Part shown: piece by piece, positions 2,905-40,586 of the stretch | Layout of the letters: each line of letters begins with the position of its first letter | How positions within the stretch are numbered: position 1 is the first letter of the stretch | DNA from: a bacterium | GTDB taxonomy: Bacteria; JAGOBX01 | Reading direction: 5' to 3' | Assembly: GCA_029551925.1 (NCBI GenBank) | Contig: JAKPEO010000024.1 | Location: 1 to 41,605, forward strand | Length of the DNA: 41,605 nt | Translations under genes and position numbers: made by a program | Notes under the pieces: model-generated | Database searches by the model: none | Told to the model about the DNA's origin: nothing | The model's input: the letters and a program-made list of their open reading frames with translations, nothing else

Positions 2905-5676
2905 TTAATTTACCTTATAAATTTTTATTTTATGATGTTTGCCTTTAACTTCTGTTTCGCTGTAAAATGAAATATTGCTGGTATTTTTTAATTTTTCATA
3001 AACTGACTCTGTTATTAAAACCTCATTTTTTTTTGCTAAATCTTGCAATCGCGCGGCAGTATTGACAGCATCGCCGATCGCCGTATATTCTAATCTTTGG
3101 AAGGACCCAAAAGCTCCGAGCAATACGTTGCCCGCATTAATGCCTATGCCTATTTCAATAATCGGTTCGCCTGTATTTTTTCTACGCTGATTTATACCCT
3201 CTAATCGTATTAATATTTCCTTTGCTGATTTTATCGCTTTTTCTTCCGGATTATTATCATTACCGCTCATATTGAATAATGCTAATACGCTGTCGCCTAT
3301 AAATTTATTTATAATGCCGTTGTTTTGAGTAATAATTTTTGTTACACTTGTATAAAAATCATTTAATAAACTTTCTAATTTCGCTATTTCTAAATTTTCA
3401 GAAATTGTAGTGAAACCGCGAATATCTACAAAAAAAATTACTAAATATTTATTGCTGACTTTTAGGGCATTATCATTTTCTTCGACATAATCATTATCCG
3501 CGCCTGTCATACTCAATAATTTCATTTTTTGCGTTTCTAATTCGCTCAATTGATTTAATTTTTCAAGCAAAAAATTAACTTTTTCAAATAATCCGATTTT
3601 TTTGCATATCTCGATTGATGATTTCAAACAATTTATCGCATCTTTAAAATTTGCGGTTTTTTCATAATATATGGATAATTCATAATATGCTTCAATCAAA
3701 TCATTATTGAGCGGGTCAAGATTTTCGTAAAGTTTTATCGCTGATTTAAAAAGTTCTTCTATCTGTTTACCGCGTTTGTTCAATATTGTATAGCATATTC
3801 CTTTAACTAATAATATATGTGCCTGTAATAATCTATTTTTTGCGTATTTCCAACAGTTTTCGGCATCATTAAGATATTTAGTGACATACTTAACTAATCC
3901 TATTTTAGCGTTATTTATTGCTAATTGCAGAAGCACTAATATTTTATTATTCGGATTGTCAATAACATTAAAATATTCTAATGATTTTTTTAAATAAGTT
4001 TCAGCGATATTAGTCATATCTTGTTTTTGATAAACTAATCCGAGATGATAATAAGAAAATGCTAATGAATGTATATTTTCAGTTTGTTTTGTAATACTCA
4101 AATCTTTTTTGAAAAATTCTTCTGCTTTTTGATATAAATTTTGCAGTAAATAAATCTTTGCTTTTTGGCTGTATAAAAGCGGCAATTCTTGAATATTTTC
4201 GCGGATTTCTAATATTCTAATCGCTTCGTCTATGTAATACATCGCTTCGTTTATGTCGCCTGCGCGAATATAATGTTTAGAAATCAATTGCATTGAATTT
4301 ATCAATCTATTGATGCTGTAATTTTCATAAAATTTATTAAAAGCGGTCATAAAAAATTTTAAAGAATCCGCGTGAATCTCATTTGCGCTCAATGTCTGCG
4401 CTATGCCGCATAATGTCTCGGCATATTCAAAAGTATGACGGTAAGCATTTAACCCTTTCAGCGATTGATTGTATAATTCCACAGCTTTTTTTATTTCGTA
4501 GTTTTTCAATAAAATAAAGCATTTTTGATTGTTGATTTTTGCTTTATAGCGCGCTTTGAAAAAATCGTATTTACAATGCTCTAATAATTTCTCTTCTATG
4601 TATTTGAATATTTGCAGCGCTTCTTTATCATTTCCAAATTTTGATTTGCAAAGCGCTTTTTCATAATACAATCTCACCTGATATTCAATGTCTTCGCAGT
4701 ATTCTAATCTTTTTTCTAATTTATCAATCAACGTAAATGCGCGCGGATAATTTTTCATTATTGATAATGTCCGTATTGCGCCAATATGCAATTTGTAAAA
4801 TAATTCGCCGCTGATATTTTCAGTTTCTACAAAATACATGCCTTGTTCGAATAATTGCAGTGCTTTATTATGAAAACCAAAGTCATAAGACATTTTAGCT
4901 AAATTAATTAATATTTCTAAATATTTAGGAACAGCGACTTTATTGCGTATTAATTCAGAAGCATAAAACATTGCTGATTTCAAACAAATTAATGATTTAT
5001 GAAATTTGAATTCCGCTTTGAATAATTCGCTGAATCCAAACAATTCGTCAATATTTTTCAATAATAGCGGAAACAGCACATTTTCATATTCTTTTGGAGC
5101 AATGTATTTTAGCAGATATTTAATTACTCGATTTTTGAAGCAATAATCGAATACATCGGCGCTCGCGGAATTTTGTAAAAGTTTCAAAAGCGCATTAATG
5201 CCGGCATTGTGTTTTTCTATTTTTATATCAATTAATGCGCTTAATAATTTGAAATTTTCATAATTTTGATATGTGTCTTTTGCAATAATTTGACAGCGCG
5301 ATTGACATTCTGTTGCTTTTGAAATATTGTCAATATCAATATACAACTCTCCGAGTTTGCTGTAAAAAGCCAAATAAATATCAACATTATAAAATTTCAA
5401 TTTTTCAAATTTTAAAAATAATTCTTTAAAAAATCGCAAGCCCTTATGACTGTCTAATGTCAGCGTATAATAATCGCCAATCGCCAATATCGCAAATACA
5501 TACAGATCATTATATTCATTAATATATTTTTCCTGTGAAATCAGCAGTAAAAACTCGTTATTTATTTTTAATAGCTGGTCTAATACTGAATTATGTTTAT
5601 CTTGAAAATAATAATCAAATAATTCTTCGAATAGTTTTAATAATTTTTTGTTTTCGTATGTATTGATAAACGCCAT
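2905..5676 (-). CDS. TPR-repeat protein with C-terminal class III adenylate cyclase domain
   Basis: This 923-residue soluble-looking protein has about 700 residues of helical TPR-like repeats. Clear repeats include SLAFSYYHLGLVYQKQDM and EAYYELSIYYEKTANFKDA. A class III nucleotide cyclase domain follows in the last 180 residues. The two metal-binding Asp residues are present in VIFFVDIRGFTTISENL and KFIGDSVLALF. The Lys of INKFIGD and the Asp of EYTAIGDAVNTAARLQ are the residues that favour ATP over GTP, and the Asn and Arg for catalysis are in VNTAARL. It is therefore probably an active adenylate cyclase gated by protein contacts through the TPRs (inference). No cAMP receptor is seen in the window. 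It lies between the radical-SAM fusion gene and the FtsB-like gene. Confidence 0.9.
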   Translation of the reverse strand: MAFINTYENKKLLKLFEELFDYYFQDKHNSVLDQLLKINNEFLLLISQEKYINEYNDLYVFAILAIGDYYTLTLDSHKGLRFFKELFLKFEKLKFYNVDIYLAFYSKLGELYIDIDNISKATECQSRCQIIAKDTYQNYENFKLLSALIDIKIEKHNAGINALLKLLQNSASADVFDYCFKNRVIKYLLKYIAPKEYENVLFPLLLKNIDELFGFSELFKAEFKFHKSLICLKSAMFYASELIRNKVAVPKYLEILINLAKMSYDFGFHNKALQLFEQGMYFVETENISGELFYKLHIGAIRTLSIMKNYPRAFTLIDKLEKRLEYCEDIEYQVRLYYEKALCKSKFGNDKEALQIFKYIEEKLLEHCKYDFFKARYKAKINNQKCFILLKNYEIKKAVELYNQSLKGLNAYRHTFEYAETLCGIAQTLSANEIHADSLKFFMTAFNKFYENYSINRLINSMQLISKHYIRAGDINEAMYYIDEAIRILEIRENIQELPLLYSQKAKIYLLQNLYQKAEEFFKKDLSITKQTENIHSLAFSYYHLGLVYQKQDMTNIAETYLKKSLEYFNVIDNPNNKILVLLQLAINNAKIGLVKYVTKYLNDAENCWKYAKNRLLQAHILLVKGICYTILNKRGKQIEELFKSAIKLYENLDPLNNDLIEAYYELSIYYEKTANFKDAINCLKSSIEICKKIGLFEKVNFLLEKLNQLSELETQKMKLLSMTGADNDYVEENDNALKVSNKYLVIFFVDIRGFTTISENLEIAKLESLLNDFYTSVTKIITQNNGIINKFIGDSVLALFNMSGNDNNPEEKAIKSAKEILIRLEGINQRRKNTGEPIIEIGIGINAGNVLLGAFGSFQRLEYTAIGDAVNTAARLQDLAKKNEVLITESVYEKLKNTSNISFYSETEVKGKHHKIKIYKVN

Positions 5677-8727: not shown

Positions 8728-8771
8728 AAAAAAAAAAAATAATTTGACTTAAAATATTATTTTTTTATAAT
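8728..8771 (+). promoter_or_regulatory. Promoter of the secretin cassette, with A12 tract upstream of -35
   Basis: TTGACT (8744-8749), a 16-base spacer and a perfect TATAAT (8766-8771) place the transcription start near 8778. A run of twelve A (8728-8739) sits 4 bases upstream of the -35, where an UP element would lie. This start point leaves only about 3 bases before the TTG at 8781 but a normal leader before the ATG at 8815. Confidence 0.6.
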
Positions 8772-8780
8772 AAATTTTTA

Positions 8781-11015
8781 TTGAATTTATTAAAAATTAT
8801 AAGGCGGATTTTTTATGAAATTAAAAAATTTTTTATTTTTTTAATTTTTATTGTAATATTAATTTCAAAAGCAAATGCTGAAAAATATGAAATCGAAATT
8901 TTCAATATTTTGCCTGAGCAGATTGCAGTTCAATTAACAAATGAATTTAATATCCAAATAAATAGCGACAATAACAAAAAAATAATATTTTTTGAAGCTA
9001 CGCCTGAACAATATAATAATATATTAAAAAGAGTCGAAGAAATAGATATTGAACCAACCACCACTAATGTTACAGATTCTCAAAAATTAGAAGAACTAAA
9101 TAACACATCAGTTATCTCAACGCCTACAGAACCAAACGAGTCAATAGAAGAAAAAGAAATTACAGAGTATGTTTTTTTAAATTATCTTGCCGCGATAGAT
9201 ATGCAAAAAATTATTGAAGATAAATTCGGTAAAGATTTATTTTTGATGGTAGATAAATTCAAGAATGCTTTTATAATAACTGCGCAGCCAAAAGTAATAG
9301 CAGAGATAAAAAAATTTTTAAAACAATTAGATAAAGATTATATTGAAGCGAAATCAGAAGCAGAAGCATTAGAACTGCCGCAAAACACAGAAATTTTTAA
9401 ATTACAATACATAGCGCCAGATAGAATGAATGAAATTATTTTAAGTCATTTTGGTAAGTGTATAATATCAATAGATAATGCTTCAAATGCATTGATTATA
9501 ACTGACAGACCGTCAAAATTAGCGCAGATAGGGGAGTTAATAAAAAAACTTGATAAACCTGAACAAGAGCAAGTATTAGAAGGAATACAAATAAAATACG
9601 CTGAAATAAACAATATTTTCAAAATTCTCCAAAGTATGTATGATGTTAAAAAGATGGATATTGATGACAAACAAAAGAAGATCTATATAAGTGGTCCAAA
9701 AAGTAAAGTCGAAGAAATAAAAAAATTTATTGAAGAATATGATTATGAACCGCCAGTGATACTTGTTGAAGGCACTATCTTATCTGTTAATATAGCAAAA
9801 GCAAAGCAATTAGGAATGAAATACGAGCATTCAGGCGGATTTATTTTTGATGAAAACGCTGGAAAATTTACAGAAGAGCCGGTAGTGCCATCTGACAAAC
9901 TTACTGCTTCTGGCAGAACTACTGGTTCAAAAGTAATAGGCGAATTTACTGCGGGCGTTGCGCTTTCGCAAGTAATGTATCAATACACATCAAAAAGCGG
10001 CAAAGTTCAAGAAGTATCTTTGCGCGCATTAATTGATAATAATGTAGCGGAAGCAGTATTAAAGCCGCATATAACATTTGTCAGCGGACGTTCTGGTATA
10101 TTCGAACAAAATCAAAATATCCCATTAAAATCTAAAGATGCAAATAATAATCCGATAACCACAATAATGTCCGTAGGTTTAACTTTATCTGTCGGCGGAA
10201 TTGCAGTGCCAATTGAAATCACAGACGACCACGGCAATAAAAAACATACATATAAAATTATAGTATCTGAATTAAAACTTACAGATGGTAATAAAGAAGA
10301 AGGCGAAGCATCGCGCGAAACTATTTTTGAAGCGAGTCAAATTGTTAATGATGGACAATTGATAATACTTGGCGGCGCGATAAACGATAAATCAATGAAA
10401 AAAAATTCTAAAGTGCCGTTACTTGGCGATATACCTATTATAAAACATTTATTTACATATCAAGATTCGTCAAAATCAGCTACTGAGATGCTGGCATTGT
10501 TAAGATTAACTGTTATGACGCCAGAAAGTTATAAATATAAAGCCGCGCAATTTACATCGTCAAAAGATTTAAGACCAATAGAATACGGCGGCAAGGTAAA
10601 TGACAGTATTCAAGAGCATCCATTAAAAACAGCGGAATGGTCATCAAAAATTATATATGAAGAAAACGGCGGATATTTTGATTTAATACACGATAAAATA
10701 AATGCAGACGTGATGACGCGTATAGATAGACAATTTAAAAGAAATATTCGCGGCAGAGTCAAACTTGTTCAAGAATGGAGCAATTCTGAACTTGTGCGTA
10801 AATTGATATTCAATGATAAAGGTTTGAAAAAAGCGTTTGAAGATATGTCTGCGGAATTTAAACTTTCTTGTTTTGAAATTTTATTGATTGCTAGACATTT
10901 AGGTTCGATTAATGACGAAGTATATTTGATGTATTATGAATTTTTAGATAAAAATGGGTTGATGGCTGACAGGGATCTAAAAAAAAATAAGAAAAAAAAC
11001 AAAGAAAATAATTGA
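8781..11015 (+). CDS. Secretin (GspD/PulD superfamily), start region probably frameshifted
   Basis: The product is an outer-membrane secretin, the ring channel of type II-like export systems. N-terminal ring domains of the NolW/N1 type repeat at about residues 130-190, 200-260 and 262-325 (FLNYLAAIDMQKIIEDKFG, then NAFIITAQPKVIAEIKKFL). The secretin core follows (LVEGTILSVNIAKAKQLGM; IVNDGQLIILGGAINDKS; VPLLGDIPIIKHLF). About 115 C-terminal residues past the core are charged, helical and not recognised. The in-frame start is a TTG at 8781 lacking a ribosome site. A better ATG at 8815, with GGCGG 7 bases upstream, is one base out of frame: it would give a clean signal peptide (MKLKNFLFF joined to LIFIVILISKANA) if the T7 run at 8836-8842 had one more T. 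No other type II secretion genes are in the window. Confidence 0.88.
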   Translation: MNLLKIIRRIFYEIKKFFIFLIFIVILISKANAEKYEIEIFNILPEQIAVQLTNEFNIQINSDNNKKIIFFEATPEQYNNILKRVEEIDIEPTTTNVTDSQKLEELNNTSVISTPTEPNESIEEKEITEYVFLNYLAAIDMQKIIEDKFGKDLFLMVDKFKNAFIITAQPKVIAEIKKFLKQLDKDYIEAKSEAEALELPQNTEIFKLQYIAPDRMNEIILSHFGKCIISIDNASNALIITDRPSKLAQIGELIKKLDKPEQEQVLEGIQIKYAEINNIFKILQSMYDVKKMDIDDKQKKIYISGPKSKVEEIKKFIEEYDYEPPVILVEGTILSVNIAKAKQLGMKYEHSGGFIFDENAGKFTEEPVVPSDKLTASGRTTGSKVIGEFTAGVALSQVMYQYTSKSGKVQEVSLRALIDNNVAEAVLKPHITFVSGRSGIFEQNQNIPLKSKDANNNPITTIMSVGLTLSVGGIAVPIEITDDHGNKKHTYKIIVSELKLTDGNKEEGEASRETIFEASQIVNDGQLIILGGAINDKSMKKNSKVPLLGDIPIIKHLFTYQDSSKSATEMLALLRLTVMTPESYKYKAAQFTSSKDLRPIEYGGKVNDSIQEHPLKTAEWSSKIIYEENGGYFDLIHDKINADVMTRIDRQFKRNIRGRVKLVQEWSNSELVRKLIFNDKGLKKAFEDMSAEFKLSCFEILLIARHLGSINDEVYLMYYEFLDKNGLMADRDLKKNKKKNKENN

Positions 11016-11052
11016 GTGATTATAGTTTAATATAAAAATCGGAGTATATTAA

Positions 11053-13842
11053 ATGAACAAAAAAATTTTGATTATTATATATTTATTATTATCATTATTC
11101 GCCGCTTTTAGCGCAGAAGCGCTGAATATGTCACCGACATTAAAGCAATTATCTGAAAAGCGCAAAACGCCGGCCAATGTAATAATTAAAAAAGCGCCAG
11201 CCGGTAAATCTGATTTAGTATCAGTGATTATTCGTTCGAGTCAAAGCGCTCAGGATTATGAATATATAAAAAAAATTGGCGGTATGCCGCGGTCGATAAT
11301 GGGCGAGTATATTACTGCATTAGTTCCGATAGATAAGCTTTCTGTTTTAAGTGAACGTCAAACAATAATTTTTATTTCTGAAAATAGAAAAAAAAAAATG
11401 CTTCTTGATAATGCGCGTAAAAGCGTTAATGCGGATTCAGTGTATTTAGGCGAGGGCGGTTTAGCAAAAGCATACAAAGGAAACAATGTAATAGTTGGCG
11501 TTGTTGATTCCGGTTTGGATATTTCTCACAATGATTTTAAAGACAGTGTAGGTGGAAGCCGAGTTTTATATTTATGGGATCAGACGGCAGATGCGCAATT
11601 TGGTCCTACTGAAATACCAAATTCTTTTGGTATAGAATGGAGCAAAGAACAAATAGATAATAATGTGTGTAATCAAATTGACGACCACGGACACGGCACA
11701 CATGTCGCAGGTATAGCAGCTGGCAATGGCGCGGCATCTTCTGATGTTTTTCGCGGAATGGCACCAGAAGCCGATATTATTTTTGTAAAAACTGATTTTG
11801 AAAATGATGTTGACGGTGTGAATTATATATTTAAAAAAGCCGAAGCGCTCGGACGGCCAGCTGTTGTTAATATGAGTTTAGGCGGGCATTTCGGTCCGCA
11901 TGACGGCACAAGCAATTATGAACGAAGTTTAGAAGTTTTAACAGGTCGCGGAAAAATCCTTGTTGTTGCAGCTGGCAATGAAGGTATGGATAAAATCCAT
12001 TATTCAGATGTTGCAACTTCAACTCCAAAATATGTAGATTTCAAAATGTTCGATGTATCAGCAAATATTGAACTGTGGTATGATAATCAGACACGCGATA
12101 AAAATGTCACCTTGACTTTTCAAATTTTAGATAATAATAATAACCCAATTGCTGCGCTTGGTCCATTAAATCCTGGAATGTATCTTGAACGAGATTTTGA
12201 TTTTCCAACCGAACCGGTAGTAGACGAATCCGAAACATTTGTAATTGCTGATGCGCGGCTGACGCTTGACCCTAATAATTACGCATCATTAGTAAGCATA
12301 TCATATGGCTCAAAATTAAAATACACTTTAAGAATAATATATACCGGTAATACAAAATTTGATATGTGGCTCGCTACTAATGGCGCGGTGGGCGAGTTTG
12401 AACAAGGCGATACATATTCTACTATCGGCGCGCCGGGCACAGTGGCTTCCGCTATTACAGTCGCGGCTTATACTACAAAAACCGAATGGTGGGGGCAAGA
12501 CGGAAATTATCATTATCAATATTTAGAAGCCGGTTGGCCTACCCATATGGATAATATTGCCTCATTTTCATCGCGCGGGCCGTCGCGCAGATCAGATTGG
12601 ACTGGGTTAAAACCGAATATAAGCGCGCCGGGTGAAATTATTTTTTCAACATTTAGTTCATCAAGCAATGCTCAAACTAAAAACAAAGATATGACTGGCA
12701 AATATGTGAAGATGGAAGGGACAAGTATGGCTACACCTGCTGTAACCGGAATAGTTGCGCTGATGCTTCAAGCCAATCCGAATCTTAATCCTGCAGAAGT
12801 AAAAGAAATCTTAAAAAAATCCGCTAATACTGATGCATATACCGGCGCTGTGCCGAATGTAATTTGGGGCAATGGCAAAATCAATGCTTTGGCAGCCTTA
12901 CTCGAAACGCTAAATATCGTTATTGACACTACTGCTGCCGTGTATATTGATACAAGTAGTTCGATAATTTCTTCGCTGGTCACCGCAAATACCGCTGTTG
13001 CGCAAGTGCTCTTTGATTCGCAATGCGCAGGCGGAAATGTTATAACTGAAAAAGTAAAATCTGAATTATTAAACTATTTGGCTGATGGTTCTGTTGGCGA
13101 TACAATTATTCTTGACCTTGAATTTAAAGATAGAAATTTACCTATCACTATGACAGTTAAAAATATTGAAGATGCCTCAACAAGAGCAAAAGTGGACGCC
13201 GCAGAAAATTCTATTATTGATTTTGGTGGTGGATACGCTTATCAAGTAGCATTAAAAACAGTCCGCGATATTTCATTTATTCGCAACGGCGCGGCGTATA
13301 ATTCTGCGAGTTCATTTAATAAAGCGCGTATAACTTATAATGTTCCGGCTGGGCTGCGCGGCTATCCGCTCGCTGTTTATTATCTTGATGAAACAGACAG
13401 CAGGTGGAAAATCGTTAATGAAAATAATATTAGTTATTCAGCTAATGGCGATACAGTATCAGCGGAATTGACGCATTTTTCAATATACGGACTATTTGCA
13501 AAAGGCGTGCGCAGCGCCAGCGATTTTTCAGAACTTGTAATTTTTCCTAATCCGTTCAGACCAAATGACGGCAATGAATTGACAGGTCTTGAATTCACAG
13601 GTAGTTATAATATCAACAATAAAACAGGAATTCATATTTCTGGGCTTATACCTAATAGTTCTATAAAAATTTATGATATTAACGGCAGATTAGTCGCAGA
13701 ACTTCAGCCGATTTTAGGGACAAGTATGGCTATTTGGGACGCGCGAATGAAAGATGGCAGATTAGCACCGACCGGCTTGTATCTGGTTTTAATAGAAAAT
13801 GCCGGACAAAAACGTATTGAAAAACTGGCAATTGTTAGATAA
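11053..13842 (+). CDS. Exported subtilisin-like serine protease (S8) with C-terminal FlgD-like/sorting module
   Basis: The protein has 929 residues with a signal peptide (residues 1-21) and a propeptide-like region (about 50-115). The S8 catalytic triad is complete: Asp152 (GVVDSGLD), His214 (DDHGHGTHVAG) and Ser558 (EGTSMATPAV), with oxyanion Asn309 (AAGNEG). A roughly 140-residue beta-rich insert (320-460) splits the catalytic domain. The last 95 residues, from FPNPFRPNDGNE through IKIYDINGRLVAEL to PTGLYLVLIENAGQKRIEKL, match FlgD-like Ig and type IX-like C-terminal modules that act in export or surface attachment. GGAG lies 9 bases before the ATG. It stands 37 bases after the secretin gene and before the PorV/PorQ-like gene, so a shared export role is inferred. 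Confidence 0.92.
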   Translation: MNKKILIIIYLLLSLFAAFSAEALNMSPTLKQLSEKRKTPANVIIKKAPAGKSDLVSVIIRSSQSAQDYEYIKKIGGMPRSIMGEYITALVPIDKLSVLSERQTIIFISENRKKKMLLDNARKSVNADSVYLGEGGLAKAYKGNNVIVGVVDSGLDISHNDFKDSVGGSRVLYLWDQTADAQFGPTEIPNSFGIEWSKEQIDNNVCNQIDDHGHGTHVAGIAAGNGAASSDVFRGMAPEADIIFVKTDFENDVDGVNYIFKKAEALGRPAVVNMSLGGHFGPHDGTSNYERSLEVLTGRGKILVVAAGNEGMDKIHYSDVATSTPKYVDFKMFDVSANIELWYDNQTRDKNVTLTFQILDNNNNPIAALGPLNPGMYLERDFDFPTEPVVDESETFVIADARLTLDPNNYASLVSISYGSKLKYTLRIIYTGNTKFDMWLATNGAVGEFEQGDTYSTIGAPGTVASAITVAAYTTKTEWWGQDGNYHYQYLEAGWPTHMDNIASFSSRGPSRRSDWTGLKPNISAPGEIIFSTFSSSSNAQTKNKDMTGKYVKMEGTSMATPAVTGIVALMLQANPNLNPAEVKEILKKSANTDAYTGAVPNVIWGNGKINALAALLETLNIVIDTTAAVYIDTSSSIISSLVTANTAVAQVLFDSQCAGGNVITEKVKSELLNYLADGSVGDTIILDLEFKDRNLPITMTVKNIEDASTRAKVDAAENSIIDFGGGYAYQVALKTVRDISFIRNGAAYNSASSFNKARITYNVPAGLRGYPLAVYYLDETDSRWKIVNENNISYSANGDTVSAELTHFSIYGLFAKGVRSASDFSELVIFPNPFRPNDGNELTGLEFTGSYNINNKTGIHISGLIPNSSIKIYDINGRLVAELQPILGTSMAIWDARMKDGRLAPTGLYLVLIENAGQKRIEKLAIVR

Positions 13843-23728: not shown

Positions 23729-23920
23729 TTATAAAATTCCTATATCTGACGGTTTGATAATTTTTCTACGGTCAGCTTGCGCGCGGCGCGCCGCATCTTC
23801 GCATAATTGCAAAACCTTGTTATTTATTACGCCGAGCGCTTCCATTGATATACTGCAGCCGGTGGTATTCTTAATATACTTTTTTAATTTTGACATTACA
23901 ACTACTAAACTTTCGTCCAT
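23729..23920 (-). CDS. Bacterial histone-fold protein, 63 aa
   Basis: This small protein fits a single histone fold. The first helix covers MSKLKKYIKNTTG, a long middle helix runs about residues 24-49 (MEALGVINNKVLQLCEDAAR), and a loop plus short helix carries DRRKIIKPSDI. The Arg52 and Asp59 positions match the conserved Arg-Asp pair of histones. It resembles single-domain bacterial histones such as Bdellovibrio Bd0055. It has a strong ribosome site (GGGAG 9 bases upstream) that overlaps the stop region of the metallo-beta-lactamase gene 6 bases away, so it is read with that gene and the HU gene before it. DNA binding is inferred from the fold. No database check was possible. Confidence 0.75.
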   Translation of the reverse strand: MDESLVVVMSKLKKYIKNTTGCSISMEALGVINNKVLQLCEDAARRAQADRRKIIKPSDIGIL

Positions 23921-23926
23921 AACTTA

Positions 23927-25348
23927 TCACTCCCTATGATTTTGTTGAAGAATTAACAAAATTTCGCCGTTTTCTTTTTCTACGCTTTTATAAATTTTGT
24001 TCTTCATTTTTATATAAATATTATTTAATTCGCTATCTGCCGGATAATAAGCGCCGTCTATATCTTCAAATAAATTATAATATTCCACATCTTTTGACGA
24101 TTGATTAATTTCTGTTCTTTTCTTTAATTCTAATAACCCATTATCATTTTCAATAACAGCAAATAATCCATTAGAATTTTTATAGCCGACAAAATAACGA
24201 AGTTGATATTTTACATAAATATCAGCGTTTAGTTCATAATTTTTATTATTCGAATTTTCAAATATTTTTTTATTTTGAATAATGTATTTTTTATCTTTAT
24301 AAGTTAGCGGAATATAAGAAACATAATTATCAGGAGAATGTGTAAGCAATGTTTTGGATTTTTCAAGACAATATAATTCTTTAAAATCTGTATGAACAAT
24401 AGAATTTATAGCCGCGCTGTCATGTATTATAAAATCAGTATTATTATAATACATAATCGCTTCTTTATAACGTTCCATACTCCACATTTTTTCAATATAT
24501 TTATTTATGTCATCAGAGATTACAAATTTATTTTTTATTTCCGAATTTTTTAAAATAGCATTATCATTATTAACAACTGCAAGTTCTTTCCATAAATTCA
24601 AATCAAATACAGTATCGCCGCTAAAAAATATTTTTGTATCATCAACCGTCAATACAGCGCCTACTGCTGAAATACCGTGCCATATCGGAGCATTAATAAT
24701 TTCAATCTTTGTGTTTATTTCCGGTATATCAAATGTTCTGTTGTTATAATAATAGCGCTCATCTGAAAAACTGTAATATGCTTCAGGATTGACCCATACT
24801 TTATCTCTTTCATCATAAACTAAAATATCAATATTTTCTGTAAATGGCAATTTAAAAATTTTTGCTTTATCAATTGAAACCGGTTTTTCGTTTTCATCGA
24901 TTATTTGATAATTATTATTTTCGCAAATAACTTTATATTTTGCTCGCGGTCCTAAATAAATACAATCAACAAAATCATCATAATTTAATCTTATAATTTT
25001 TTTAGAATCAGCCGATAATGTTTTTTCAAGCGACGGTATTAAATTTTGTTTAATTTCATTATGAATCGATTCTGATGATAATAATTTTATTTTCGGTTTG
25101 GTTGGCGTAACATATTTCCTGAAAAGCAGCAAATCGCTTAACCAGCGTTTATGATCTTCGTGCAAATGCGTGATTAAAACCGCGTCAATACTGCAGATCT
25201 CTGGAAAACTTAATAAATAAAATACAGGCGCGCCCGCATCAATTAATAATTTATAATCATTAAGTTCTATTAAATATGATATACTTCTACCTGTTGGTGA
25301 GAAAGGGCCGCTGTCTCCTAAAATTCTTATACTAATAGGAATTTGCAT
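23927..25348 (-). CDS. Metallo-beta-lactamase fold hydrolase with unrecognised C-terminal region
   Basis: The 473-residue cytoplasmic protein has the metal site HLHEDH (residues 61-66, HxHxDH) after the strand SIDAVLIT. Further ligand candidates are FFSGDTVF, FIIHDSAAINSIVHTD and LLTHSPDNYV. The fold opens with RILGDSGPFSPTGRSISYLI and LLIDAGAP. A long insert (about residues 90-210) and the last 140 residues are not recognised; the latter repeat Tyr-rich strand-like segments. The substrate cannot be named: families with this fold cut esters, RNA, DNA or cyclic nucleotides. It lies 20 bases after the HU gene and 6 before the histone gene, an unusual setting. Confidence 0.8.
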   Translation of the reverse strand: MQIPISIRILGDSGPFSPTGRSISYLIELNDYKLLIDAGAPVFYLLSFPEICSIDAVLITHLHEDHKRWLSDLLLFRKYVTPTKPKIKLLSSESIHNEIKQNLIPSLEKTLSADSKKIIRLNYDDFVDCIYLGPRAKYKVICENNNYQIIDENEKPVSIDKAKIFKLPFTENIDILVYDERDKVWVNPEAYYSFSDERYYYNNRTFDIPEINTKIEIINAPIWHGISAVGAVLTVDDTKIFFSGDTVFDLNLWKELAVVNNDNAILKNSEIKNKFVISDDINKYIEKMWSMERYKEAIMYYNNTDFIIHDSAAINSIVHTDFKELYCLEKSKTLLTHSPDNYVSYIPLTYKDKKYIIQNKKIFENSNNKNYELNADIYVKYQLRYFVGYKNSNGLFAVIENDNGLLELKKRTEINQSSKDVEYYNLFEDIDGAYYPADSELNNIYIKMKNKIYKSVEKENGEILLILQQNHRE

Positions 25349-25368
25349 TTGTCTTTATTTAATTTTTT

Positions 25369-25668
25369 TTATCTACCATTGACTTTATCGCGCATTTCTT
25401 TGCCCGGTTTAAATGATAAATATCTGCGTTTCGGCAAATTTATTGGTTCATTAGTTTTTAGATTTCGTCCTATTTTCGGCTGGCGAGTCTGCATTTGAAA
25501 CACTCCAAAATTTCGTAATTCAACTTTATCTTCAGCAATTATACATTTCTCAAAAGAATCAAAAAAATTTAAAATTATTTCATCTACTATTTTAGGGTCA
25601 AGATTCAATTCACTTGCTATTTTATTGCATACATCTTTTCGGATTATCGTTTTTATTTGCCTTTTCAT
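25369..25668 (-). CDS. HU/IHF family DNA-binding protein
   Basis: The product is a 99-residue DNA-bending nucleoid protein. It has the helical dimer part (KDVCNKIASELNLDPKIVDE) and the beta arm with VELRNFGVFQMQTRQPKIGR, then KTNEPINLPKRRYLSFKPGK. The arm keeps the Arg and Pro of the DNA-intercalating tip region. The frame can be extended to a GTG at 25680, but AAAGGTG overlaps that codon and is well placed for the ATG at 25668, which I prefer. It is the first gene of a run with the metallo-beta-lactamase-fold and histone-fold genes. Confidence 0.96.
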   Translation of the reverse strand: MKRQIKTIIRKDVCNKIASELNLDPKIVDEIILNFFDSFEKCIIAEDKVELRNFGVFQMQTRQPKIGRNLKTNEPINLPKRRYLSFKPGKEMRDKVNGR

Positions 25669-25708
25669 AATTTCGCGCACCTTTGAAAATATTTTATATT
25701 ATAGTTTA

Positions 25709-25737
25709 ATGTTATAATATTTTTATAATTAAGTCAA
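25709..25737 (-). promoter_or_regulatory. Promoter of the HU-MBL-histone run
   Basis: On the minus strand TTGACT (25732-25737) is followed after 17 bases by TAACAT (25709-25714), about 40 bases before the HU start. An alternative -10, TATAAC, overlaps with a 15-base spacer. Confidence 0.5.
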
Positions 25738-31693: not shown

Positions 31694-32575
31694 TTAACTC
31701 TTTTTTTGAAATTTGTCAAGTTTTAATTTATTGTTTTTTATCATCTCTTTATTTTTCAAATCATTATCCTTGATGGTTTTTTTTATTTTTTCAGTTTTAA
31801 TAAAATTATAATGACGAATAATTATCATTTTTCCCAAAGATAGACCAAGCAAAGTATCAAAACCAGAACTTGCGCCGTATAATTTCAAAATTCCAGACAC
31901 CAAATTTTTATTATTCACATTTAATATTATATAATTGAATAATTCATTATATTTATTTTCAATAGCATAATTCAACATATTTTGCGAAAATATTGTAGTT
32001 TTTTTCAAAACTTTTACTAATTTTTCCAAATTTATTATATTGCAATTTTTATAAGCACTATTTTTTTGGATATAAATCAAGCCGTTCAAAATATCATCGC
32101 CTGACGGTGTCAATCCAAATCCGCGGCCTATCAAAAAATCAATTAGATTATTTTTATAATATTTATCGAGCAATAATTCTATTAAATCATCATAATTCTC
32201 AGTTGCAAATATCTCAAAACAATTTTTTTTATATTCCACAAATAAATCAGCAGTAATATCATATATTTTTTTTAAATCACTATAATCTATTTTAGTATTA
32301 TTATTTTCATTAAAATTTTCTAAAGTTATTTCAACATTAGAAATTTTCAGTTTATTATCTTTTAATATATAGTTATCATTTAATTGAACTGTATTTTTTA
32401 GTTTTTCAAATTTTCTTATATCTAATATAATAGAATACGGCAGAAGAATAGTTTTATTTTTTAAAATCGCAATAAGCCTATCATCATCATACAATAGATT
32501 TATAGCATTATCAAAAATAGAGTGGATTTTACCCACTGCCACAATATTTTTTAATTCATTAGCGCAGCGAATCAT
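31694..32575 (-). CDS. DUF2877 family protein (AllH-like)
   Basis: The 293-residue protein carries the DUF2877 signatures LIGRGFGLTPSGDDILNGLI (about residues 148-167) and YGASSGFDTLLGLSLGK near the end. In E. coli the DUF2877 protein AllH is part of the oxamate carbamoyltransferase complex of allantoin use (AllFGH). No partner for that route is in this window, so the function here is open. The start overlaps the stop of the small membrane protein gene by 4 bases (ATGA). The Lys-rich C-terminal 35 residues look like a low-complexity tail. Confidence 0.8.
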   Translation of the reverse strand: MIRCANELKNIVAVGKIHSIFDNAINLLYDDDRLIAILKNKTILLPYSIILDIRKFEKLKNTVQLNDNYILKDNKLKISNVEITLENFNENNNTKIDYSDLKKIYDITADLFVEYKKNCFEIFATENYDDLIELLLDKYYKNNLIDFLIGRGFGLTPSGDDILNGLIYIQKNSAYKNCNIINLEKLVKVLKKTTIFSQNMLNYAIENKYNELFNYIILNVNNKNLVSGILKLYGASSGFDTLLGLSLGKMIIIRHYNFIKTEKIKKTIKDNDLKNKEMIKNNKLKLDKFQKKS

Positions 32576-32970
32576 AAATAATACCTAATTTGTGGTTTAA
32601 CACTGTATTTAAACACAAGCAGCAGTATTATTACAGCAGCAGCAGTGATGTATTCTTTTGGATTAGATGTTTCTATAAAAGATAGAATTATTATTAAAGA
32701 TATAATAAAATACAATATGCTGAATATTTTTATTTGTTTTTTATTTTTATCAGACAAAATATCTATAATATTTTTTACAATTGTAATTATATAATCAAAC
32801 AAGAACAAAAAAACAGCCACTAAAAATATTTTATAATGCGGAAAATCCAAAAAATTTTCATTTACATAATCATCGGAATTAATAAAACTCAAAGTTGTAA
32901 TTAATATACCACATCTAAACACGACAAAAAGGAGTATAAATAAAAATTTATTATCTAATTTTTTTAACAT
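32572..32970 (-). CDS. Small four-helix membrane protein, unknown function
   Basis: The 132-residue protein is made of about four membrane helices (residues 7-28, 46-66, 82-99 and 106-124) with short Lys-rich loops. No family is recognised. AAAGG lies about 10 bases ahead of the ATG, supporting expression. It is coupled by a 4-base overlap to the DUF2877 gene and lies 82 bases after a 38-aa peptide gene on the same strand, so the three may form one operon from the promoter at 33203-33231. Confidence 0.65.
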   Translation of the reverse strand: MLKKLDNKFLFILLFVVFRCGILITTLSFINSDDYVNENFLDFPHYKIFLVAVFLFLFDYIITIVKNIIDILSDKNKKQIKIFSILYFIISLIIILSFIETSNPKEYITAAAVIILLLVFKYSVKPQIRYYL

Positions 32971-37357: not shown

Positions 37358-38254
37358 TTAAAAAATATTTTTATATTCATTCATTATTTTTTCAACTGAA
37401 ATATTTTTGTCTTTAACTTCAAGCATAACATCTATCCGCTGATTTAATAGCGGTTTAATAAAATCCATAAATTCCGCAATATTTATCGTCTCTGAATGAG
37501 CGCTTCCGGATTTTGTCAGTGACAATTGCGAATAATGTATTTTCTGGACGCCGTATTCTTTTCGCCAAGTTTTATGGGCTTGTTTTATTATATCATAAAT
37601 ATCAGCCGCGCTATCTCTGCAATTAATTCGATGATGCAATACATCAAATACTACTGCCGCATCTATTTCTTCGGCGATTTCTAACACTTCGTCAATATTA
37701 TAATTTTTTTCATCGTTTTCTATTGTCAAACGCTTTCTACTGTTTATCGGCAGTTTATTAAAATTTTCAATAAATCTTTTTTTCGAGTTTTTTTTATCGC
37801 CATATACTCCGCCAATATGCAATATTATTCGATGTTCATAACCATCGGTTATCTCATCTAAAAATTCCGTATGATAAATTATATCATTCACAGCGTTTTC
37901 CAAAACCTTTGGATTTTCCGTATTCAGCACTGTATATTGTCCGGGATGCATTGACACGCGCATATTATTTTTTTTTATAAATTGTTTTATGCTTCCAAAT
38001 TCCGCTTTAAATTCTTTGCGCCATTTTATTTTATTTATATAATGCGAAGCAAATGGTATTACATCTGAACTAATGCGAAACAAATATATATTTTTTGCTA
38101 AATTATATTCCAATATTTTCAGCACGCTTAATAAATTAATGTGTATTAATTCCCGCAAGCGTTTATCATCGGCATTTTTTAATAAGCAACGACGCATTTT
38201 TGTGTCAGGCAACAGCGGATTTATACAAGCGTAACCTAATTTTATTTTATTCAT
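37358..38254 (-). CDS. uvsE: UV damage endonuclease (UvsE/UVDE family)
   Basis: The 298-residue TIM-barrel repair nuclease nicks DNA 5' to UV photoproducts in an excision route independent of UvrABC. Family blocks are seen in order: KIKLGYACINPLLPDTK, FRISSDVIPFASH, RVSMHPGQYTVLNTENP, IILHIGGVYGDKK, LTIENDEKNYN, FDVLHHRIN, KIHYSQ and MLEVKDKN. These supply the His and Glu/Asp metal ligands. Length is typical. The start overlaps the upstream YfhO-like gene by 8 bases and the next gene is 12 bases away, so a repair gene is embedded between two membrane glycosyltransferase-type genes. Confidence 0.95.
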   Translation of the reverse strand: MNKIKLGYACINPLLPDTKMRRCLLKNADDKRLRELIHINLLSVLKILEYNLAKNIYLFRISSDVIPFASHYINKIKWRKEFKAEFGSIKQFIKKNNMRVSMHPGQYTVLNTENPKVLENAVNDIIYHTEFLDEITDGYEHRIILHIGGVYGDKKNSKKRFIENFNKLPINSRKRLTIENDEKNYNIDEVLEIAEEIDAAVVFDVLHHRINCRDSAADIYDIIKQAHKTWRKEYGVQKIHYSQLSLTKSGSAHSETINIAEFMDFIKPLLNQRIDVMLEVKDKNISVEKIMNEYKNIF

Positions 38255-40586
38255 ATTCCCTACATTTTTTTACTAATAACAGTGCGATAAAAAAACTTAT
38301 TACGGCGAATACAATTAAAATTTTCAAAGTATTTTTTTCACGCAGCAATACTATTTCAAATTCGCCGTCTTTTAATGCAGCGCAAATAAACATATTATTA
38401 CAGCGATATTTTTTTTTCTCGCTGCCGTTATAATACATCTTGTCAAAATTTGTGAATTTCTCGCTTATAAATAAATATCGGCTGCCTTTATTATATCCGC
38501 TAATTTTTACTGAACCGCCGACACGCTCGATTTTTTTTATAATACCTCGTCCGACATTATTTTCAATAATAGTATCATCATCAATATCTTCATTCAATAT
38601 CAACTTATCTTTTACGCTGATAACATTATTCTTCAACATTTCATAAGATTTTTCCAAATCTTTTTCAACTATCGCGTCATTATAAAATTTTGCATAGCCG
38701 ATATTTTCGCTACGACGATAAATATATAAATCTTTATACTTTTCTAAAAACTCTAATTTTGATTGTTCAGCATTAATTTCTAAATCCGAATATATATAAC
38801 CAATATTCAATAAATCCAGCAATTGCGAATTAATATCAGGTCTGCTGATTTCTGTGTTCGGATGAACATCACGCATATTAGTTTCTATTCCGCGAAAATA
38901 ATCTATATAGTATTTTTCAACTAACGGATCATAGCCACGCGCGCTTTCTATATCATAAAATATCGAGCCGTTCAACGCTAATAAATGATCAAGCGGCACT
39001 AGCGACAAAATCCGTGCATCTTTTTTTGATACGATTTTTTTTTCATAAAAATTCATCTTTTCAACAAGTTCTGAATTTGGGATATTATCAAAAAATCTAA
39101 AATTAAACCAATGCAATTCTACTATAAAAAGCGCTATTGTAAAAATTAAATATTTTCTGCGTTTGTTCGCAAGCAATAAACTCAAAATATAGCCGATAGC
39201 AAACGCAAAAAAAATATACAACTGCTTGATTGAATGATTAACGGCATTATTTATAAACGCGCTGTAAAATTGCCAATTATGATAATGATTATTCTTTTTT
39301 AAATATTCGCTATGCCCTATTTTTTGCAAATACTCTATTAATCTGCTTCTCGAAAAAATATCAGCGACAAAAAACACAAAAAATACTATCATCAAAACTT
39401 GCAATATTTTTTTTAAAATATTTGCATTTTTAATTTCGCTATTTTCGCAAAATATTTGCAAACTAATAGCAGCGGCAATTGTAATGAATATATCGTAAAA
39501 ATACAATATTCGTTTTGGCGAGCGAAAATTACTGACTCCCGGCAATACATCAAACAAAATTCTGAATAATGGCGCGTATCTGCCTAATGATATTAGTAGC
39601 GCGAATATCCCCAAAAAAATAAATAAATAATATCGTTTATTTTCTTTTAGCGATTTAGTCAATCCAAAAATCAGCAAAATTATCGGCAATATTCCTAAAA
39701 ATTCTATATGCGTATGCACTTGTTTTAATGGCCGCCAAAAATTGCCCCACGCTGTGCCGTCCGCTATATTGCCATAAAAATCAGGTATCAAAATATTTAT
39801 TAATTTGCTCGGTTTGACAGAACCATCAGTCGCAAAATAATATGAATTTGCTGAAGAACGCGCCGCAATTTTACTAAATTTATATGTCGAATATATTTGA
39901 GGCAGTGTTAATAAAATTACTATTATCGCGGCTATTATTAAACGCCATAAAATCTTGATTTTTTTTAAATCATAAATCAAATAAATCAAAATTATCAAAC
40001 CTGAAAATATCAAAGCATAATATGGAAATTGCGGGTGTCCGCCTAATATCGAAAATACTAAAACAATAGAATATTTCAATACATCAGCCCACTGCTCTTT
40101 ATCTAAATATCTGAACAAATAATAAAATATCAGCGGCAGCCAAATATATGCGTTAAACACTTGTTTTAACGGCGCAAAATAAACTGCAAACCAACAAAAA
40201 CCCAGAGAAATCATGCCGAATAAAACAACAATATTTTTTTTGCTAAAATATGAAATCAATAAATAACAGCCGAACAAATAAATAATATAATTTAGAAAAA
40301 AAGTGATTTTAAATGATTTCAGCGGCTCGATAAAATAAAAAAAAATATCTATCGGATAAAATAATCCTGATTGTATATTCGAAGCAAATGGCAGTCCTGA
40401 AAATACATACGGATTGTATTCTGGAAATGTAAAATTATTTTTAAAACTATTATAAATAAAATATTTCCACGGAAGCGACATTGTCAAAAAATCGCCAGTG
40501 AACGGCAATCTATCGTAAAATATAATCCTATAAAAAAATAAAATGAATATTAATGCTATTACAAAAAAAATCCATTTTTTGTTCAT
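38247..40586 (-). CDS. YfhO family polytopic membrane protein (GT-C like)
   Basis: The 779-residue protein has about 13 membrane helices. Its first loop shows the YfhO hallmarks: TGDFLTMSLPWKYF, PEYNPYVFSGLPFASNIQSG and LFYPIDIFFYF. The GD of the first motif is the expected catalytic-type acid. After the membrane part lies a soluble domain (about residues 520-730) and one last helix. Members glycosylate lipoteichoic acids or other surface polymers in Firmicutes; elsewhere the role is unknown. It is the first gene of the run with uvsE and the GT39-like gene. Confidence 0.9.
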   Translation of the reverse strand: MNKKWIFFVIALIFILFFYRIIFYDRLPFTGDFLTMSLPWKYFIYNSFKNNFTFPEYNPYVFSGLPFASNIQSGLFYPIDIFFYFIEPLKSFKITFFLNYIIYLFGCYLLISYFSKKNIVVLFGMISLGFCWFAVYFAPLKQVFNAYIWLPLIFYYLFRYLDKEQWADVLKYSIVLVFSILGGHPQFPYYALIFSGLIILIYLIYDLKKIKILWRLIIAAIIVILLTLPQIYSTYKFSKIAARSSANSYYFATDGSVKPSKLINILIPDFYGNIADGTAWGNFWRPLKQVHTHIEFLGILPIILLIFGLTKSLKENKRYYLFIFLGIFALLISLGRYAPLFRILFDVLPGVSNFRSPKRILYFYDIFITIAAAISLQIFCENSEIKNANILKKILQVLMIVFFVFFVADIFSRSRLIEYLQKIGHSEYLKKNNHYHNWQFYSAFINNAVNHSIKQLYIFFAFAIGYILSLLLANKRRKYLIFTIALFIVELHWFNFRFFDNIPNSELVEKMNFYEKKIVSKKDARILSLVPLDHLLALNGSIFYDIESARGYDPLVEKYYIDYFRGIETNMRDVHPNTEISRPDINSQLLDLLNIGYIYSDLEINAEQSKLEFLEKYKDLYIYRRSENIGYAKFYNDAIVEKDLEKSYEMLKNNVISVKDKLILNEDIDDDTIIENNVGRGIIKKIERVGGSVKISGYNKGSRYLFISEKFTNFDKMYYNGSEKKKYRCNNMFICAALKDGEFEIVLLREKNTLKILIVFAVISFFIALLLVKKCREYE

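Follow-up and report, generated by a model that had tools for sequence, protein, structure and literature searches.

I found an apparent operon on the reverse strand of a bacterial contig in which an HU/IHF-like gene, a gene for a protein of the metallo-beta-lactamase (MBL) fold and a histone gene follow one another. It may be a chromatin operon, producing an IHF-like protein, an MBL phosphodiesterase and a tail-less alpha3 histone from one unit, and I put the probability of this reading at about 60%. The window, that is, the whole stretch of DNA analysed (41,605 nucleotides), is the entire contig C117 of a genome of 2.96 Mb in 131 contigs, which is 86% complete. The genome belongs to JAGOBX01, an uncultured and barely sampled phylum with scarcely any data. 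In GTDB, JAGOBX01 is the phylum of Candidatus Honifiota, known from one wastewater genome of 3.83 Mb with 30.2% GC (PMC11382960). A second JAGOBX01 genome of a different genus, G001, the only other one of the phylum in the comparison, was also examined, and its trio lies on contig JAGOBX010000482.1. Bacterial histones are mostly single-gene units, and the trio names testable candidate partners for one of them.

The last gene of the unit (23729..23920, minus strand) runs from an ATG to a TAA and encodes 63 amino acids. Its sequence and predicted structure mark it as an alpha3-type bacterial histone with a short alpha3. A held-out profile made of 31 histone domains from other bacteria, the window's own protein being left out, gave it as the sole match when the window was searched in all six reading frames (63.4 bits, E 1.2e-18). 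Single-sequence phmmer matches in the PDB were HLp of Leptospira perolatii, the best one (3e-6), and HBb of Bdellovibrio (1e-5). The initial annotation had read the protein as one histone fold and had proposed a structure prediction against Bd0055 (HBb). AlphaFold2 from the single sequence indeed gave a histone-fold monomer with helices at 3-20, 26-51 and 57-60 (mean pLDDT 83), and HBb and HLp head the Foldseek list for this model (probability 0.91-0.96) with E about 0.1, as is expected with only 63 residues. The Arg-Asp pair recognized earlier in the DRRKIIKPSDI ending is the RD clamp R52-D59. Absence of a histone according to Pfam PF00808 (18.0 bits, cut-off 21.4) was rejected, as PF00808 alone misses the gene.

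How does this histone relate to the known ones? HBb (Bd0055 of Bdellovibrio bacteriovorus, the "bacterial dimer") shares with it the single fold, the short alpha3, about 38% identity over 55 columns and an RD clamp with an extra Asp (D50 here, D49 in HBb). When compared at the DNA-contact residues of HBb (PMC11317129), the histone retains S10, K11, K13, K17, S25 and K53, and its alpha1 lysines K11, K13 and K17 align to K10, K12 and K16 of HBb. In contrast, T8 of HBb is replaced by Met, N22 by Ser, T53 by Ile and R57 by Ser. The L2 motif RKTxxxD of the HBb subfamily thus reads RKIIKPSD, with R52, K53 and D59 present and Ile in place of Thr; all 33 of the 33 other histones compared have the Thr, and the Ile is found solely in the 63-residue protein. 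Because of this Ile and the Ser at HBb R57, the DNA binding of the histone may be weakened. Also unlike HBb, it has an Arg (R46) at one of the two FtF positions (R48 and N52 in HMM numbering, residues that the HBb subfamily lacks), while D50 takes the place of the Asn. Of the tetramer set R49, N53 and R55 in HLp, an FtF histone, R49 and R55 correspond to R46 and R52, whereas N53 corresponds to D50, and the N-terminal tail is lacking here. The gene neighbourhoods differ too, hlp having SMC and MAP genes nearby; an HU/MBL operon is not described for HBb. With both FtF arginines but Asp for Asn, the protein is best called a divergent alpha3 histone, with no safe assignment to the dimer or the FtF group. 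A tree position between these two groups was rejected owing to a long branch and weak support.

The first gene of the unit (25369..25668, minus strand) encodes a 99-residue HU/IHF-like DNA-binding protein (PF00216, E 1.5e-24), counted from the ATG at 25668, which is preceded by AAAGGTG and appears the more likely start than the GTG at 25680. HU/IHF proteins insert the proline of the RNPxT motif into DNA and kink it. There are three HU/IHF paralogs in the window's genome and four in G001, and among these seven only the operon copy has RNLKT for RNPxT, in both genera; the two other proteins of the window's genome keep the Pro. The Leu at this site may still intercalate, and the bending may have been lost. 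The best PDB matches of the operon protein are IHF chains, and it retains the IHF-beta arginine, the criterion for an IHF-beta-like protein in PMC11390915. Thus the HU partner named earlier holds as a PF00216 family member, more precisely an IHF-like one deprived of the intercalating Pro. Several of the HU paralogs (G000:C102, L046; G001:C302 and C258, L045 and L047) have lysine/alanine-rich N- and C-terminal tails, and another adjoins a GTPase gene in an arrangement common to both genera (L041, L042).

The three genes are tightly packed. The MBL gene starts at 25348, 20 nt past the end of the HU/IHF gene at 25369, and its TGA stop lies 6 nt ahead of the histone ATG. The ribosome-binding site of the histone, AGGGAG (23930..23935, minus strand), is inside the last MBL codons, and AAGGAG is found in the last MBL codons of G001 ahead of the histone start. 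Both the 20-base spacing and the overlapping ribosome site had been noticed before and agree with the coordinates. Such a layout would couple translation of the histone to that of the MBL protein, and the three genes are probably co-transcribed. A separate promoter for the HU gene had also been claimed. The candidate (TTGACT, 17 nt, TAACAT; 25709..25737, minus strand) has its TTGACT box 69 nt ahead of the HU ATG; it is weak alone, since promoter-like sites occur at the chance level by motif count (22 found, 22.4 expected), but G001 has the counterpart TTGACT-16-TATAAT upstream of its HU gene. It is a possible promoter of the unit. In G001, the interval from the promoter to the HU start contains a 56-nt near-perfect inverted repeat (L007, 1099-1154; 28-nt arms, 82%; RNA fold z-score -4.8), of which no counterpart was seen in the window's leader.

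Is this gene order conserved? The initial annotation had suggested looking for it in related genomes, and G001 has it: an HU gene (59% identical in protein sequence) and an MBL gene (47%) lie 21 nt apart and are followed by ATGGATGATAGTTTAGTTC, the opening of the histone gene, with six codons that read MDDSLV (MDESLV here). The contig ends there, 19 bases into the gene, so the first impression that G001 has no histone was rejected; the conservation of the order rests on two genomes, with just these 19 bases of the histone gene in the second. The upstream flanks differ, with PPK2 and response regulator genes in G001 versus a glycosyltransferase gene in the window. Since the proteins have diverged and the upstream flank has changed, the three genes have been kept together against a changing background. 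Outside JAGOBX01 the HU-MBL-histone order is rare. Of 386 diverse bacterial genomes, 35 have histones; neither HU nor MBL was found within 1.5 kb at about 30 other histone loci, and when the flanks of about 40 such loci were followed as far as 6.5 kb either way, one HU gene, 5 kb off, and no MBL gene turned up. No relatives of the histone or the MBL protein were found in viral contigs. The unit's neighbours in the window include genes for glycosyltransferases, PlsX, RpmF and YceD.

The initial annotation knew of no description of a histone and an HU protein made from one mRNA with a possible hydrolase between them. Schwab et al. 2024 reported 19 "IHF histones" from Omnitrophota, Wallbacteria, CG03 and Elusimicrobiota; every one of them shares an operon with an IHF-like gene, their C-terminal tail is structured, and their cluster includes a topo VI-like gene (PMC11390915). 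Because these were published in 2024, a histone and an IHF protein made from one unit were already known, and this part of the claim does not stand. What is new here is a tail-less histone with an MBL gene, in another phylum. The present unit resembles the "IHF histones" in having an IHF-like gene in one apparent operon, whose product keeps the IHF-beta arginine. It differs from them in that the Thr of RxTxxxxD is missing, the MBL gene intervenes, no topo VI-like gene was found among the unit's neighbours in the window and the C-terminal two-helix tail is absent, the protein stopping four residues after D59. Together with the "IHF histones", this unit suggests that the pairing of histone and IHF arose or persisted repeatedly in bacteria. 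No publication joining bacterial histones with MBL was found in a literature search.

The middle gene (23927..25348, minus strand) encodes a predicted MBL-fold hydrolase of 473 residues (PF00753, E 4.7e-10; AlphaFold2 model with pLDDT 78.6) with a beta-rich C-terminal extension at about 342-473. Its metal ligands H61, H63, D65, H66, H224, D245 and H337 (HxHxDH and others) are invariant in six full-length homologs. Thus the possible hydrolase of the initial annotation has intact ligands, and it can be refined to a predicted phosphodiesterase or nuclease type. Like the class II phosphodiesterases Apyc1 and YhfI, it combines the MBL fold with HxHxDH and the remaining ligands, and Apyc1 is its best structural match (Z 18.8 over 233 residues, rmsd 3.3 A, residues beyond about 370 being hardly covered). 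Unlike them, it is 473 rather than about 240-250 residues long, has insertions and the extra C-terminal part, and scores only 22.1 bits with the Pfam Apyc1 model, far under the cut-off of 50. A homolog in G166 adjoins a CHASE2-class III cyclase gene. In G019:C69 (L083, 656-5412), a homolog shares a cluster with a TrkA-type channel and a pair of cNMP-binding proteins, the second of which has a further match to Transposase_mut. Co-occurrence of MBL and class III cyclases in a genome (8/8) was dropped as evidence, since cyclases are present in 253 of the 386 genomes and are uninformative for MBL. Co-occurrence of MBL homologs with histones, seen in G019, G166 and G388, not in three other genomes and never as adjacent genes, was left unused as well. 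A defence-system reading of the MBL protein was rejected because it had no PADLOC match.

Does the MBL protein act on cyclic nucleotides or on nucleic acids? It might be an RNA- or DNA-processing nuclease of the RNase Z/J kind at the nucleoid, for which the two DNA-binding proteins of the operon would fit as a sign of a nucleic-acid substrate. Structurally, RNase J and RNase Z come close behind Apyc1 (Z 16.8 and 16.3), and RNase Z leads the NCBIfam matches, with a score far under the cut-off. I consider a nuclease unlikely, because Apyc1 comes first in both the Foldseek and VIA-align rankings, two homologs lie in cyclic-nucleotide neighbourhoods and the C-terminal extension had no RNA-binding domain match in Pfam. 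The fold match and the two neighbourhoods favour a cyclic-nucleotide phosphodiesterase over a nuclease, at perhaps even odds or slightly better. The phosphodiester that such an enzyme hydrolyses would most probably be a cyclic mononucleotide, in the manner of the class II type.

Is the MBL protein connected to the DNA-binding proteins at all? The order might reflect mere shared descent in one small family, with MBL functionally unconnected to its neighbours: the trio is confined to two genomes of one family, and in Planctomycetota, Desulfobacterales and f19 the MBL homologs are solitary or lie close to signalling genes. This seems a doubtful account of genes that, at 47-59% identity and with an altered upstream flank, have nevertheless retained order, spacing and the overlapping ribosome-binding site. 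It is also conceivable that the histone-fold protein is no longer architectural and that, as a small protein, it now partners or regulates another factor such as the IHF-like protein or MBL. The absence of the Thr in L2 and of an Arg equivalent to HBb R57, the long lone branch among bacterial histones and the two further HU/IHF proteins with intact Pro in the genome would agree with this; I hold it to be quite improbable, since the alpha1 lysines, S10, S25, K53 and the RD clamp are all retained. Thus the chromatin operon is preferred, and its retention in a related genus suggests a chromatin module to which the hydrolase may be tied. The IHF-like protein and a histone dimer would most likely both bind to the backbone of DNA without sequence specificity, bending or compacting it as HBb and IHF do. 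It is a far bolder and very unlikely proposal that the histone, the Pro-less IHF-like protein and a cyclic-nucleotide phosphodiesterase work as one regulatory module, in which histone and IHF-like protein may co-assemble on DNA. If true, it would couple the level of a second messenger to nucleoid architecture.

Some other genes of the window were also recorded. A gene at 2908-5676 (minus strand), which shares the contig with the predicted phosphodiesterase gene, encodes a 923-residue TPR protein whose C-terminal domain is a class III nucleotide cyclase (PF00211), matched by the PADLOC PycC models too. On the plus strand, a secretin-like gene and then a gene for a large subtilase lie at 8748-13839. 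On the minus strand, there are an AllH-like gene of the oxamate carbamoyltransferase subunit family (PF11392) at 31697-32578 and a gene for the UV damage endonuclease UvdE (PF03851, E 7.8e-63) at 37361-38257, the latter adjoining membrane protein genes.
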